NCBI RefSeq assembly: GCF_001463705.1
Contig: NZ_BBWH01000010.1
Coordinates: 1-64,000 of the forward strand
Direction of reading: 5' to 3'
Origin: Aureimonas sp. AU12
Lineage (GTDB): Bacteria > Pseudomonadota > Alphaproteobacteria > Rhizobiales > Rhizobiaceae
DNA: 64,000 nt
Shown here: positions 45,050 to 51,950 of the stretch, piece after piece
Layout: every line of letters begins with the position of its first letter
How positions within the stretch are numbered: position 1 is the first letter of the stretch
Notes under the pieces: model-generated
The model's input: the letters and a program-made list of their open reading frames with translations, nothing else
The model's database searches: none
Told to the model about the DNA's origin: nothing
Program-made: the position numbers and the translations under genes

Positions 45050-45076
45050 AAAAAGCCCCGCCGAGCGGGGCTTTTT
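45050..45076. terminator. Bidirectional rho-independent terminator
   Basis: A 12-base-pair stem (AAAAAGCCCCGC with GCGGGGCTTTTT) around CGA. The A run gives a T run on the other strand, so it can end both the DUF1127 gene and the convergent kdsB-pheA gene. Confidence 0.9.
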
Positions 45077-45125: not shown

Positions 45126-46733
45126 TTACTCGCCGAGCACGGGGCGCGGCTCCTCCGGCCGGTCGTCGGCCGCGGGATAGACGCCGAGGATCGAGACGCG
45201 CTTGGAGAAGAAGCGCAGTTCCTCCAGCGCGTGGGCAACGCCGACATCATCGGGATGACCCTCGATATCCGAATAGAACTGCGTTGCCACGAACTTGCCC
45301 TCGAGCTGATAGCTCTCGAGCTTCGTCATGTTGATGCCGTTCGTCGCGAAGCCGCCGAGCGCCTTGTAGAGCGCGGCCGGCAGGTTGCGCACCTCGAAGA
45401 TGAAGGTGGTGACGACGCGCGAGCCGTCATGGGTGGCCCAGAGTTCGCGCTCGCCGGCGCTGCGGCGCGAGAGCACCACGAAACGGGTCGTGTTGTGCTC
45501 GGCGTCCTCGACGTCCTCCGCAAGAATGTCCAGCCCGTAGAGCTCGGCCGCCAGACGCGGCGCCAGCGCCGCCACCTGGCGCTCCGGCATCTGCGAGACG
45601 ATGCGCGCGGCACCCGCCGTATCGCCGGAGATCACCGGCTTCCAGCCATTTTCGCGCAGAATGCCGCGGCACTGGCCGAGCGCGTGGATGTGGCTGTGGA
45701 CCTCGCGGATGTCGGCCAGCACCGTACCGGGCTTGGCCATCAGCTGGAAACGGATCGGCAGGAAGAACTCGCCGACGATCTTCAGGCCGGAGACCGGCAG
45801 GAGATGATGGATGTCGGCGACGCGGCCGGCGATCGTGTTCTCGATCGGGATCATCGCCAGATCCGCCTCGCCCCGCGTCACCGCGGCGAACGCATCTTCG
45901 AAGGTCGCGCAGGGCAGCGGCTCCATCGCCGGGTACATGCGCCGGCAGGCCGTGTCGGAATTGGCGCCGGCCTCGCCCTGGAAGGCGATGCGGCCGGTGG
46001 GGGCGGCGGGCGCGAACTGGTCGCGCGCCTCCTGCAGCTGGTAGGCGGTGTCGACGCCGAGCGGCACGGCCTCCACCACCTCGGCGTCGATGCGCATGCC
46101 CGCCTCCAGCGCGCGCAGCTGCTCCAGCCGCTCGCGGCGCTCCAGCGGCGAAGGCGGCAGCGTCACGAAGCGCTCCAGCACCGCCCGGCGATAGGCGTAG
46201 ATGCCGACATGGTGATAGAGCGGCCCCTCACCCGTGGGAGCGCTTGCGCGCGTGAAGTAGAGCGCGTTGAGCCGCGCCTCGCCGGCCGGCGTGCCGACGA
46301 TCTTGACGACGTTGGGATCGTCGCGGTCGGCCGCGTTGGCGATCTCCACCGCGACGGTGGCGATGTCGCAGGCGGGATCGGCGAGAGGGCGCAGCACGGC
46401 GCGGATCGTCTCGGCCTCGATCGTCGGCAGGTCGCCCTGCAGGTTGACGACGATCTCCACCTCGCCGCCGGGATCCACCGCCTGCAGCGCCTCGAAGATC
46501 CGGTCCGACCCGGACTGGTGGTGATCGCCCGTCATGACCGCCTCGAAGCCCGCGGCCACCACGGCGTCGCGGATCTCGATGCTGTCGGTCGCCACCACGA
46601 CGCGGCCGATCATCGCGGCCCGGGCGCGTTCGGCAACACGCACGATCATCGGGGCGCCGTGGATGTCGGCCAGCGGCTTGCGCGGCAGGCGCGTCGAAGC
46701 CAAGCGCGCGGGGATGAGGACGAGTGTGGACAT
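45126..46733 (-). CDS. kdsB-pheA: Fused KDO cytidylyltransferase and prephenate dehydratase
   Basis: One 535-residue open frame holds two complete enzymes. Residues 1-243 are KdsB, which activates KDO with CTP for lipopolysaccharide: [34 protein letters not shown] and VGIYAYRR are visible. Residues 248-535 are PheA: the catalytic TTRFVVL lies at 415-421, and the C-terminal ACT domain (about 440-518) contains KLESYQL. The linker is about five residues (PAAPT), and no ATG, GTG or TTG lies within it, so PheA should not start alone there. In rhizobia kdsB and pheA are normally adjacent separate genes. Both domains look intact. The gene is divergent from cycM. Confidence 0.9.
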
Positions 46734-46941: not shown

Positions 46942-47811
46942 ATGAATTCTTTCGAGGCCAACAAAGTCTTCGGCGCTCTTCTGGGCACCGTCTTCGTTCT
47001 GTTCGGCGGCAGCCTTCTGGCGGAAGGCATCTTCCACTCCGAAGCGCCCGAGCAGCCCGGCTTCGCGATCGTTGCCGCCGAGCCGACGGCGGGCGGCGCC
47101 GCCGCGCCGGCGGCCGCCGTCACCACGCCGGTCGGCCAGATCATGCAAACCGCCAACGCCGAGGCGGGCGCGGCCATCTTCAAGCGCTGCCAGGCCTGCC
47201 ATTCCGGCGAGAAGGGCGGACCGAACAAGGTCGGCCCCGATCTGTGGGACATCGTGAACCGGCCGATGGCCTCGCACGAGGGCTTCTCTTACTCGGCGGC
47301 GATGACCGAGTTCAGCCAGGGCAAGACGGTGCTCTGGGACTGGGATCACCTGAACCACTTCCTCCACGGTCCCAAGCAGTACATCAAGGGCACGGCGATG
47401 GGCTTCGCCGGTCTTCCGAAGGACCAGGAGCGCGCCGACCTCCTCGCCTACCTGCGCTCGCTTTCCGACAACCCGCCGCCGCTGCCCGCGCCCGATGCCG
47501 GTGCGACGGAAGCCTCCGCCGAGGGCGCGGCGGCTCCGGCCGGCGACGCAACGGCCGCGCCTGCCACGGCCCCCGCCACCAGCACCGACCCCTCGCTCGT
47601 TCCGGGCGATGCGGTGTCGCAGCCGCAGGGCGGCGGCACGACGGACGCCACCACCGGCGCCGCGCCGACCGCACCTGCCGGCGCCGTGCCAGCCACGGGC
47701 GACAACGCGACCAGCGCACCCGCTGCCGCGCCGACCCCGCCGGCCGCCCCCGGCGAGGCTGCGCCCGCCGCCCCGGCTCAACCGAACGCGGCGCCGGTTC
47801 CGGCGCAGTAA
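46942..47811 (+). CDS. cycM: Membrane-anchored cytochrome c (CycM-like) with long Ala/Pro tail
   Basis: A 289-residue cytochrome c with an N-terminal membrane anchor (about residues 10-28). The haem site is Cys83-Cys86-His87 (CQACH) and the likely axial Met is Met153 (GTAMGFAG). The length to residue about 173 fits CycM of rhizobia, which carries electrons between complex III and oxidases. After that comes a tail of about 115 residues rich in Ala, Pro, Gly and Thr, with no recognised domain. The gene next to kdsB-pheA in divergent order is conserved synteny in Rhizobiales. Confidence 0.9.
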
Positions 47812-48063: not shown

Positions 48064-50073
48064 TTGCCGTTCCGCATGCGCGCCGCATCCGCCGTCCTCG
48101 CCGTCACGCTGCTTCAAGCGGGCGCCCTGCCTCAAGCGGGCGCGCAGGAGACACCCGGCCCGGCCGCGACGCCTGCCCTTCCCGCGCCGGCCGCAGCTGG
48201 GAACGCGACGCCGACGGCAGCCGTGATGGGCGAATGGATGACCTCCTCCTCGCTCATCCGGCCCTCGAAATACGGGGCCGACTTCCCCCATTACGACTAC
48301 GTGAACCCCGCCGCGCCGAAGGGCGGGACGCTGAACCAGCAGGCGCCCGGCACGTTCGACAGCTTCAATCCCTTCCCGGTGCGCGGCACGCCGGCCGCCG
48401 GCTTCGTCGCCTTCGGCGGCGGCATCGCCTACGACACGCTGATGGATCAGGCGCTCGACGAGCCGGGCGTCAGCCACGCGCTTGTCGCCGAGGCGGTGCG
48501 CTATCCCTCCGACTATTCGTCGGTCAGCTTCCGCCTCGACCCGCAAGCGCGCTTCCACGACGGTCAGCCGATCACGCCCGACGACGTCGTCTGGACCTTT
48601 CAGACCGTGACCCGCCTATCGCCGCTCTACGCCAACTATTATCGCAACGTCACGGCGGTCGAGGTGACGGGCGAGCGAGAAGTCACCTTCCGCTTCGACC
48701 AGACCGGCAACCGCGAGCTTCCCAACATCATGGGCGATCTCGTCGTGCTGCCGCGCCACTACTGGGAGGGCACGGACGCCTCGGGCCGGAAGCGCGACAT
48801 CGACAATCCAACGCTTGAAATCCCGGTCGGCTCGGGACCCTACCGCGTCAAGGCCTTCCAGCCGGGCGCGACGATCACCTGGGAGCGCGTGCCCGACTAC
48901 TGGGCGGCCGAGAAAGGCGCGCGGGTCGGGCGCTACAATTACGACGAGATCCGCTACACCTATTTCCGCGATCAGAACTCGGGCTGGGAAGCCTTCAAGC
49001 GTGGCGGCTTCTCCGACTACCGCTCGGAGAACAGCGCCGGCCGCTGGGCGCAGGGTTACAACTTTCCCGCCTTCAACGATGGCCGCGTCAAGAAGCAGGC
49101 CCTGCCCTCCGAAACCGGCGAGCCGATGCAGGGCTTCGTCCTCAACACCCGCCGCGACAAGTTCGCCGATCCGCGCGTGCGCCGGGCGCTGACGCTCGCC
49201 TTCAACTTCGAGGACATGAATCGCGGTCTGTTCTACGGGCTCTACAAGCGCACCTCGAGCTACTTCCAGGGCACCGAACTGGCCTCGTCCGGCCTACCCT
49301 CGCCCGCCGAACTCGCGATCCTCGAACCGCTGCGTGACCAGATCCCGCCCGAGGTCTTCACGACGCCCTTCACCCTGCCGGACTATTCGCAGCCGAATGC
49401 CGAGCGAACCTATCTGCGCGAGGCGTTCGAGCTTCTGAAGGCCGCCGGCTGGGAGCGGCGCGGCACCCAGCTCGTCAACGCCGCGACGGGCCAACCCTTC
49501 ACGATCGAATTCCTCGCCGCCGACCCCTCCTCCTCGCGGGTGATCGATCCCTTCGCCAACCAGCTGAACCGGCTGGGCATCCAGACCAACACCCGCATCG
49601 TCGACACCTCGCAATATCAGGCGCTGTCGGACAATTTCGAGTTCGACGTCATCACCGACGTCTTCGCGCAGTCGCTCTCGCCCGGCAACGAGCAGCGCGA
49701 CTTCTGGTCGAGCGCGGCGGCCGCGCAGCCCGGCAGCCGCAACGCGCCGGGCATCCGCAACCCGGCGGTGGACGCGATCGTCGATAAGATCATCTACGCG
49801 ATGGATCGCGACAGCCTCGTCGCGGCGACCCATGCGCTCGACCGCGTGCTCCTGTGGAACTTCTACGTGGTGCCGCAGTGGCACAATCCGGAAATCTGGC
49901 TGGCGCATTGGGACAAGTTCGGCATGCCGGACACGCGCCCCGCCTATGCCGGGCTCGACCCGTTCTCCTGGTGGGTGAAGGGCGATGTGCCGGTGAACAC
50001 GCCGGCCGATGCCGCCGCTGCCGATGCGCCGGATCCGAGCGCGCCGCCCGTCATCCCGCCGGCCCGGCCATGA
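48064..50073 (+). CDS. yejA: Extracellular solute-binding protein, family 5 (YejA-like), first copy
   Basis: A 669-residue periplasmic binding protein of the SBP_bac_5 family for oligopeptides. The signal peptide is Sec type (AVLAVTLLQAGALPQAGA-QE). The FDSFNPFPVRGTP and PDDVVWTFQTV segments and the later PNIMGDLVVLPRHYWEG are typical of YejA, whose E. coli partner system takes up microcin C-type peptides. GGAG ends six bases before the TTG at 48064; an ATG at 48076 is an alternative. Its stop overlaps the next start (ATGA), so the pair is coupled. Confidence 0.85.
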   Translation: MPFRMRAASAVLAVTLLQAGALPQAGAQETPGPAATPALPAPAAAGNATPTAAVMGEWMTSSSLIRPSKYGADFPHYDYVNPAAPKGGTLNQQAPGTFDSFNPFPVRGTPAAGFVAFGGGIAYDTLMDQALDEPGVSHALVAEAVRYPSDYSSVSFRLDPQARFHDGQPITPDDVVWTFQTVTRLSPLYANYYRNVTAVEVTGEREVTFRFDQTGNRELPNIMGDLVVLPRHYWEGTDASGRKRDIDNPTLEIPVGSGPYRVKAFQPGATITWERVPDYWAAEKGARVGRYNYDEIRYTYFRDQNSGWEAFKRGGFSDYRSENSAGRWAQGYNFPAFNDGRVKKQALPSETGEPMQGFVLNTRRDKFADPRVRRALTLAFNFEDMNRGLFYGLYKRTSSYFQGTELASSGLPSPAELAILEPLRDQIPPEVFTTPFTLPDYSQPNAERTYLREAFELLKAAGWERRGTQLVNAATGQPFTIEFLAADPSSSRVIDPFANQLNRLGIQTNTRIVDTSQYQALSDNFEFDVITDVFAQSLSPGNEQRDFWSSAAAAQPGSRNAPGIRNPAVDAIVDKIIYAMDRDSLVAATHALDRVLLWNFYVVPQWHNPEIWLAHWDKFGMPDTRPAYAGLDPFSWWVKGDVPVNTPADAAAADAPDPSAPPVIPPARP

Positions 50074-51950
50074 CCGCCTCGTTCGGACGCATCACGCGCC
50101 GCCATTTCGGTGCGCTGGGCTTGAGCGCCGCGGCCACGCTCGCCCTGCCCCGGTTGTCGCTGGCCGCCAACACGCCGGACACGCCGCTGCACGGCCTCTC
50201 GGCCTTCGGCGACCTGAAATATCCCGCTGGCTATCCGCAGTTCGACTATGCCTCACCGGAGGCGCCCGAGGGCGGGCGCATCATTCTCACCGCGCCGTCC
50301 TGGTTCTTCAACCAGGCGCCCGACACCTTCGACACGTTCAACACCTTCGTCCTGCAGGGCAATGCGCCGCCGCGCATCGAATTGCTCTACGAGGGTCTGA
50401 TGCTTTCGACGCTCGACGAGCCCGACGCGCTCTACGGGCTTCTGGCCGAAAGCGTGGCGATGTCGCCCGACGCCAACCGCTTCACCTTCCGGCTGCGGCC
50501 GCAGGCGCGCTTCTCGGACGGGCAGCCCGTCACCGCAGCCGACGTCGTCTTCTCCTATACGGCGATGAAGACGGAGGGGCATCCAAGCCTTGCCATCACG
50601 CTCGCCGAAGTGGCCGAGGTGGTGGCCGAGGACGAGCGCACCGTGCGCATCGTCTTCACCGGCCGGCAGACGGTGCCGACGGCCCTCGCCGCCCTGTCGA
50701 TCCCGATCGTGCCCGCCGCCTTCTTCCAGGGCCGTCCCTTCGGCCAAGGCGGTTTCGACCCCATCCCGGGTTCGGGCGCCTATACCATCGGCCGCTACAA
50801 TGCCGGGCGCTTCATCGAATACGAGAAGCGCGGCGACTACTGGGGCCGCGACATGGCCTTCTCGAAGGGCCTCGGCCACTTCCAGACCATCCGCATCGAG
50901 TTCTTCCGCGACCGGCAGGCGCAGCTCGAAGCCTTCAAGAAGGGCGACGTCACCTTCCGCGAGGAGTTCACGACGCGCGCCTGGGCGAGCGAGTACAGCT
51001 TCCCGGCGGTGCAGCAGAAGCGCGTGGTGACGCGCCAGTTCGACGGCGAAAAATGGCCGAACTTCCAGTGCTGGGCGCTGAACCAGAGGCGGGCGCAGTT
51101 CTCGGACCCACGCGTGCGCCGGGCGATCAACCTCTGCTTCGACTTCGAGTGGACGAACGCCAACCTGCTGTTCGGGCTGCGCCAGCATTCACAGTCGCCG
51201 TTCCAGCTGTCGGACTACGTCGCGACTGGTGCGCCCTCGCCCGAAGAGCTGGCGATCCTCGAGCCGCTGCGGGCGGACCTCCAGCCGGAGGTCTTCGGCG
51301 AGGTCTGGATGCAGCCGGTCTCCGACGGTTCGGGCAACGACCGTGTCCGGCTTCGCGAAGCGTCCGAGCTGTTCAAGGCGGCGGGATGGACGCGCAGGGG
51401 AGCAAGCCTCGTCAACGCGGCGGGTGAGCCGTTCCGTCTCGAATACATGCTGAACGATCCCGAGCAGGGCCGCGTCTACGGCAAGATGGTCGAGACGATG
51501 CGGCTCCTCGGGATCGACGCCTCGATGCGCGTCGTCGACGCCGCGCAGTACCAGGACCGTCTGAACCGGTTCGACTTCGACATGATCCTCTGCCGCTTCG
51601 TCCTCAATAGCACCCCGACCCGCGAGAGCCTCGGGCTGTTCTTCGGCAGCGCGTCGCGCGACCGGAACGGATCGTACAACTATCCGGGCATGGCGAGCCC
51701 CGCCATCGACGCGCTGCTCGACCGGATCGGCACGGCGAAGACCCGCGAGGACCTGACACTGGCCATGCGCTGCCTCGACCGGGTGCTGCGCTGGCGCCTC
51801 GACTGGCTTCCCAACATTCACGCCGAGGGCCACGCCGTCGCCTACTGGGACATGTTCGGCTTTCGAAGCCCCAAGCCCGATTACGGGTTCCCGGTCGAGT
51901 CGCTCTGGTGGTACGACGAAGCGAAGGCGAAGGCTGCGGGCCGCGCATGA
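50070..51950 (+). CDS. Extracellular solute-binding protein, family 5 (YejA-like), second copy
   Basis: A 626-residue paralogue of the preceding gene with the same fold: DTFDTFNTFVLQG, TAADVVFSYTAM and the GFRSPKPDYGFPVE end. It is exported by a Tat-like signal, with RITRRHFGALGLSA at the N-terminus, whereas the first copy uses a Sec signal. It overlaps the first gene by four bases. Two binding proteins for one permease suggest two peptide groups share the transporter. The ATG at 50070 is used; the frame opens further upstream inside the first gene. Confidence 0.85.
   Translation: MTASFGRITRRHFGALGLSAAATLALPRLSLAANTPDTPLHGLSAFGDLKYPAGYPQFDYASPEAPEGGRIILTAPSWFFNQAPDTFDTFNTFVLQGNAPPRIELLYEGLMLSTLDEPDALYGLLAESVAMSPDANRFTFRLRPQARFSDGQPVTAADVVFSYTAMKTEGHPSLAITLAEVAEVVAEDERTVRIVFTGRQTVPTALAALSIPIVPAAFFQGRPFGQGGFDPIPGSGAYTIGRYNAGRFIEYEKRGDYWGRDMAFSKGLGHFQTIRIEFFRDRQAQLEAFKKGDVTFREEFTTRAWASEYSFPAVQQKRVVTRQFDGEKWPNFQCWALNQRRAQFSDPRVRRAINLCFDFEWTNANLLFGLRQHSQSPFQLSDYVATGAPSPEELAILEPLRADLQPEVFGEVWMQPVSDGSGNDRVRLREASELFKAAGWTRRGASLVNAAGEPFRLEYMLNDPEQGRVYGKMVETMRLLGIDASMRVVDAAQYQDRLNRFDFDMILCRFVLNSTPTRESLGLFFGSASRDRNGSYNYPGMASPAIDALLDRIGTAKTREDLTLAMRCLDRVLRWRLDWLPNIHAEGHAVAYWDMFGFRSPKPDYGFPVESLWWYDEAKAKAAGRA

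Follow-up and report, generated by a model that had tools for sequence, protein, structure and literature searches.

A kdsB•pheA gene fusion in the genus Aureimonas that joins CMP-Kdo synthetase to prephenate dehydratase

The genes for CMP-Kdo synthetase (KdsB) and prephenate dehydratase (PheA) form a single open reading frame in all 21 genomes of the genus Aureimonas that were searched (525 to 543 codons each), which is far beyond chance. Among the junctions read, the kdsB-pheA fusion was found in this one genus. We consider it highly probable that the product is a single bifunctional KdsB•PheA protein in which each half works like its free relatives, and that the fusion goes back, probably as one event, to the ancestor of Aureimonas. 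The gene was analyzed in a window of 64,000 nucleotides from Aureimonas sp. AU12 (contig NZ_BBWH01000010.1, forward strand from position 1), and all coordinates refer to this window.

The fused gene and its product

The fusion gene is located at 45126-46733 on the minus strand. It starts with an ATG at 46733, ends with a stop codon at 45126-45128, and comprises 535 codons plus the stop with zero internal stops; the calculated mass of the product is 58.0 kDa. The KdsB half (46014-46733, minus strand; residues 1-240) was assigned from the NCBIfam models PRK05450.1-1 and TIGR00466 and by Foldseek, and the PheA half (45129-45992, minus strand; residues 248-535) by NCBIfam and Foldseek. The linker between them, APAAPTG (45993-46013, minus strand; residues 241-247), is a coil in the AlphaFold model. 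In the window gene, no in-frame ATG, GTG, or TTG occurs between a GTG at residue 223 and an ATG at residue 266.

Both halves matched NCBIfam equivalog models over their full length and above the curated cut-offs. The KdsB models PRK05450.1-1 (residues 1-240) and TIGR00466 scored 380 bits against a cut-off of 281 and 205.5 bits against a cut-off of 155.2, respectively, and the prephenate dehydratase model PRK11899 (residues 245-526) scored 462.9 bits against 359. The Pfam PDT domain (196.8 against a cut-off of 25.2) covers residues 249-425 of the fusion protein. The ACT region follows at the C-terminus and carries NMTKLESYQ at residues 468-476; this region was assigned from the full-length PRK11899 match, and the Pfam matches of the fusion protein did not include the ACT model of that database.

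The N-loop ARLxSTRLP, NLQGD, HHVG, EQLRALE, and GVD, which we take to be active-site motifs of KdsB, are all present in the KdsB half of the window. Across the genus, EQLRALE and G[VI]D[TM] occur in 21/21 genomes. The strict patterns NLQGD[LVM]P and HHVG.YAY are each found in 19/21, the departures being NVQGDLP (locus L016) and NLQGDQP (L019) from the former and HHIG (L017 and L019) from the latter. The strict N-loop pattern is present in 10/21, and the others have SRL, ARM, or ARI at that place; the loop reads AATRLP in L005 and GSTRLP in L019. In the PheA half, the TRF motif and the GALV- and ESRP-like stretches of ACT presumably have roles in prephenate dehydratase, and we regard NMTKLESYQ as the ESRP-like stretch. 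TRF and NMTKLESYQ are kept in all 21 genomes, and PAALYKA[LM]GGFA in 18, with A replacing P in L010-L012. Among 40 free PheA relatives, NMTKLESYQ occurs in 27 and LESY in 39. The ACT stretch of the fusion is nearly identical to that of these free relatives, which makes the inhibition of the PheA half by phenylalanine through the ACT domain likely by homology. As judged from family membership and motifs, the KdsB half would make CMP-Kdo and the PheA half phenylpyruvate, as one 58 kDa product.

The initial annotation had described a single 535-codon frame at this place, without its strand, in which enzymes of two unrelated pathways are joined through a short linker lacking ATG, GTG, and TTG, and had judged the gene not to be decayed. 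The frame proved correct and lies on the minus strand, the window sequence agrees with the description of the linker, the union of the two enzymes is borne out by the equivalog models passed on both sides, and the intact families and motifs support the view that the gene is not decayed.

A single chain was modeled with AlphaFold from 98 aligned rows (21 fused proteins, 37 free KdsB, and 40 free PheA), with a mean pLDDT of 88.9 and a pTM of 0.67. In the model, KdsB ends in a helix (residues 230-240), residues 241-247 form the coil, and PheA opens with a strand (residues 248-252). Confidence was low at residues 451-480, the Phe-site stretch of ACT (pLDDT 57-60). Each half has a best match among the solved structures. 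Brucella PheA with bound phenylalanine (PDB 6vh5) shares 68-69% identity over the PheA half, with a near-identical ACT stretch, and E. coli KdsB with CTP and 2-deoxy-Kdo (PDB 3k8d; best Foldseek match, 3k8d_A) has the same fold as the KdsB half at 45% identity. Unlike KdsB•PheA, both of these proteins are free enzymes. KdsB is dimeric and PheA tetrameric. The second-best solved relative of the PheA half by sequence was GqqA (7alz and 7am0), a prephenate-dehydratase-like protein titled as a quorum-quenching acylase, so that members of this family may have side activities.

Occurrence in Aureimonas and selection on the fused gene

The initial annotation had proposed a search for the junction in related genomes, and the frame was open across it in each of the 21 genomes of the genus. 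Nine of the 21 fused sequences match records named Aureimonas (ME7, phyllosphaerae, SK2, Leaf324, AU22, fodinaquatilis, two altamirensis, and frigidaquae); the genus membership of the other 12, including that of the window, is by group code. The other 20 fused sequences are 68-88% identical to the window. A stop reported by the search in L016 and L017 sits at the PheA end and not at the junction; therefore, both are fused.

The linker has the same length in 20/21 genomes and is one residue longer in L017. Its sequence is variable; within residues 241-247, only P242 and T/S246 are largely kept (19/21 each). Among the 21 sequences, pN/pS was 0.97 at linker residues 239-247, with a Jukes-Cantor (JC)-corrected ratio of 0.94, and the corrected ratio was 0.26 in the KdsB core, 0.19 in PDT, and 0.22 in ACT; these are simple pairwise counts in which the linker contributes nine codons only and related pairs are counted repeatedly. 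Both halves are under purifying selection, and the linker sequence drifts at a nearly neutral rate with its length held. Drift, a near-fixed length, no stop, and no common start are the features expected of a linker that is translated within a fusion and serves as a passive tether.

Separate kdsB and pheA genes outside the genus

Of 40 genomes compared from other genera, 33 have their kdsB and pheA matches, by coordinates, 400 bases or less apart on one strand, and the earlier statement that they are adjacent genes in related bacteria holds for the most part. The kdsB-pheA neighborhood is old and common in Alphaproteobacteria, Azospirillum and Thalassospira included.

A search of the family (394 genomes) gave at least 79 joined matches among the matches listed (E to approximately 5e-129), 8 from the genus and 71 from elsewhere. 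The order search (297 genomes, E 1e-140) gave 42 joined matches outside the genus, the class search (289 genomes, E 1e-120) 14, one of which was already in the order search, and the phylum search (349 genomes, E 1e-100) one further match; these four samples overlap and were drawn evenly from the larger groups, and weaker joined matches would escape them. The junction was read in all 127 joined matches listed outside the genus (71 + 42 + 13 + 1), and a stop separates the halves into two genes in every case. Among 80 named records, the nine Aureimonas sequences are fused and 71/71 others have a stop between the halves. Of the loci read, 208 are separate pairs (192 distinct), 30 are fused genes (21 and a further 9 repeats), and four lack a pair. 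Among the 208, the gap from the kdsB stop to the pheA ATG ranges from an overlap of 4 bases to 129 bases. Another 18 pairs were chosen because their open-frame figures were large or to spot-check pairs whose halves had matched apart, and these proved separate as well; at least two of them repeat loci already seen. Large open-frame figures had suggested fusions in genomes G033, G038, and G048, and these were rejected when the junctions were read. Among plasmids, a tblastn search matched 140 records. Six of these, from Shinella, Sinorhizobium, and Methylobacterium, span 80% or more of the query, and one of the six (H2) carries two annotated genes.

One separate locus (L088, 3001-4632) is from a record titled Bacillus subtilis strain SK6B4. 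At the junction, its kdsB-pheA pair hardly differs from the one of Pseudochrobactrum kiredjianiae (L089), and the title is probably a mislabel.

Origin of the fusion

Trees were built from 42 chosen rows (21 fused and 21 others) under LG+G4. In the tree of the KdsB half, the 21 fused rows form one clade (98/94), with one origin in 96% of 200 bootstraps. A single fusion origin in the ancestor of Aureimonas is probable from these sequences. Two independent fusions or a later split are unlikely, and the observation in their favor comes from the PheA half: its tree places two fused sequences (L020 and L021, from G020 and G008) beside the unfused, long-branch L147 of another genus (G216), with a program warning of long branches, and a concatenated FastTree also groups G020/G008 with G216 (0.86; parent branch 0.64). 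FastTrees of 72 rows agree with the KdsB-half and PheA-half trees, respectively. However, the well-supported KdsB-half tree contradicts this grouping, the G020/G008 junctions have the QLxEARR and the linker length of the others, and a single fused clade of the PheA half was not rejected by the AU test (p-AU 0.104). The odd PheA grouping of these two genomes may reflect an artefact of long branches, a gene conversion, or a history that differs from that of the other fusions.

The edges of both old genes are still recognizable. The fused proteins retain the C-terminal helix of KdsB (QLxEAR and the like) as well as the residues past the old PheA start (R-I-S/A-F-Q-G, often after T/S-N/G); therefore, the simplest event is the loss of the intergenic stretch including the stop and the start. 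In four separate loci with 73-76% PheA identity (L136-L139), kdsB and pheA are in different frames, and in three other separate loci (L093, L143, and L147) they are in the same frame.

Proposed function and alternative explanations

We propose that the old alphaproteobacterial gene pair lost the few bases by which the two genes had been set apart, and that the kdsB stop, the pheA ribosome site, and the pheA ATG went with them. One ribosome start would then yield both enzymes in equal amounts, and, in the genome of the window, from the sole copy found of each. The N-terminal half would convert CTP and Kdo to CMP-Kdo for the lipopolysaccharide core, and the C-terminal half would convert prephenate to phenylpyruvate and be inhibited by phenylalanine via its own ACT domain, with the linker acting as a passive tether. 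The fixation of the fusion was probably neutral or favored by fixed stoichiometry. Substrate channelling is not proposed because the KdsB and PheA halves have no common metabolite.

At E 0.001, the only match in the genome of the window was to the whole query, and thus no second kdsB or pheA was found there; one kdsA scored over the cut-off in this genome. No second match of any kind was detected in 19/21 genomes of the genus, and no second PheA in any of the 21, at the same threshold. The two further matches were a nucleotidyltransferase in G002, which matched part of KdsB weakly, and a second, free KdsB with 54% identity in G014, the one genome of the 21 with such a gene; therefore, the fused KdsB is not the sole one in G014. 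By eye, this free kdsB lies between KpsF/SIS-type and kdsA-like genes (L111, G014:C2, 488-3203, minus strand), and the group resembles an additional cluster for Kdo supply of the capsule type.

An assembly or sequencing error that took out a stop has a negligible probability. The coding sequence of the fused gene differs among all 21 genomes, three of which are assembled into a single contig. This excludes such an error and, with it, an additional base that brings in a stop at the junction, a finding that the initial annotation had considered adverse to the fusion. We regard it as unlikely that two proteins are still made, either from an internal PheA start or by a post-translational cut in the linker. 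An internal start may be sought in a Shine-Dalgarno-like CAGGAGG 14 codons upstream of the PheA core, or in the in-frame ATG 7 codons upstream in L003, the TTG 15 codons upstream in L016, and the ATG 19 codons upstream in L004-L009 and L017. However, CAGGAGG has no ATG, GTG, or TTG behind it, and initiation within the frame, which the initial annotation had also named as adverse, is unlikely because no start codon near the junction is common to the 21 genomes. The nearest upstream in-frame start is 25 codons from the PheA core in 8/21 (including the window), where it sits inside KdsB, and 19-21 codons from it in 11; the two remaining genomes have it at 15 and 7 codons, respectively. The first ATG downstream, at residue 266, would lose the first strand of the dehydratase and the FQGE motif. 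Shine-Dalgarno energies did not distinguish true starts from other start codons: the median was -3.3 at the starts of 164 separate pheA genes and -3.4 at the kdsB starts of the fusions, and the internal candidates ranged from -7.1 to 0.4. Regarding a cut, the weakly constrained sequence of the linker would also be expected of a processed tether, but the 21 sequences have no clear conserved cleavage motif.

It is more doubtful that control by the ACT domain extends to KdsB, as the initial annotation had suggested in principle, and couples the phenylalanine supply to lipopolysaccharide synthesis; no finding points to an effect of phenylalanine on KdsB. In such a link, phenylalanine at ACT would change the geometry or the oligomer state of the protein, and CMP-Kdo synthesis, together with outer-membrane growth, would follow the amino-acid supply of Aureimonas; we consider this mechanism to be just as doubtful. 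The Phe-site stretch NMTKLESYQ is intact in 21/21, a free PheA with 69% identity has been solved with phenylalanine bound, and the linker is short and of the same length in 20/21, all of which are compatible with control of this kind. On the other hand, the ACT stretch is similar in free relatives of PheA and, therefore, no change in it accompanies the fusion; moreover, the linker evolves near neutrality, and ACT and KdsB are at opposite ends of the chain. We infer both the lack of cross-regulation between the halves and the evolutionary reason given above for the fusion. There is very little chance that one half is catalytically dead and serves as a mere carrier or stabilizer. The single-residue departures from the strict KdsB motifs in a few genomes are all that may be cited for a dead half, which is opposed by the family motifs kept by both halves in nearly all 21 genomes, by the low pN/pS in both, and by the lack of a second match in 19/21 genomes, with a second KdsB only in G014, the weak partial KdsB match in G002, and no second PheA. 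The bifunctional KdsB•PheA with two working halves is the reading that we prefer.

Relation to known gene fusions

The chorismate mutase-prephenate dehydratase AroQ•PheA, the P-protein type of E. coli, resembles KdsB•PheA in having prephenate dehydratase and ACT as its C-terminal part. The partner in AroQ•PheA performs the preceding step of the same pathway, whereas KdsB has no metabolite in common with PheA. AroQ•PheA is itself one of the established aromatic-pathway fusions by which clades are marked. Its NCBIfam model, PRK10622, has a cut-off of 577 bits but reached 141, with a match to the PheA part only; P-protein identity was rejected since the N-terminal part is KdsB and not chorismate mutase.

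In the available portions of PMC1173090, TyrA•AroF, AroQ•TyrA, and other aromatic-pathway fusions are described as being kept within clades and usable as phylogenetic markers, and KdsB•PheA resembles them as a clade-marking gene fusion. The partners named in those portions are aromatic or amino-acid enzymes, regulatory domains, and plant transit peptides; in contrast to KdsB•PheA, no lipopolysaccharide enzyme is among them (PMC1173090). In the accessible part of PMC2912261, kdsB and pheA are named apart. No published kdsB-pheA fusion was found in the literature searched, which covered few of the subscription journals. KdsB•PheA is apparently an undescribed domain pairing, new within a known class of bifunctional gene fusions.

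A genus-wide fusion without a common metabolite goes against the usual inference that fused genes work together, and thus provides a clean test case: it allows us to ask whether a fusion persists by chance, through fixed stoichiometry, or through new regulation. Function predictors that take fusions as functional links could be misled by KdsB•PheA. If phenylalanine did control KdsB, envelope synthesis would be linked to the amino-acid supply by a new route. Among the genomes searched, the fusion is also a sharp molecular marker for Aureimonas.

Surroundings of the gene

Approximately 50 bases past the stop codon, a perfect inverted repeat of 12 bases with A-run and T-run ends, AAAAAGCCCCGC-CGA-GCGGGGCTTTTT, was read from the sequence at 45050-45076 (no strand assigned). 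It looks like a two-way intrinsic-terminator-like hairpin. Pattern scans for promoters and terminators near the gene returned nothing, this repeat included, and two sub-threshold matches to RNA families near the gene were treated as chance. On the other side, a divergent cytochrome c gene (46942-47811, plus strand; Pfam Cytochrom_C) precedes the fusion gene, which has no co-directional gene directly upstream and, therefore, looks like a single-gene unit. Further along, 48064-50073 encodes a family-5 extracellular solute-binding protein (Pfam SBP_bac_5), and an overlapping open reading frame at 49854-51950 is in tandem with it and similar in look.
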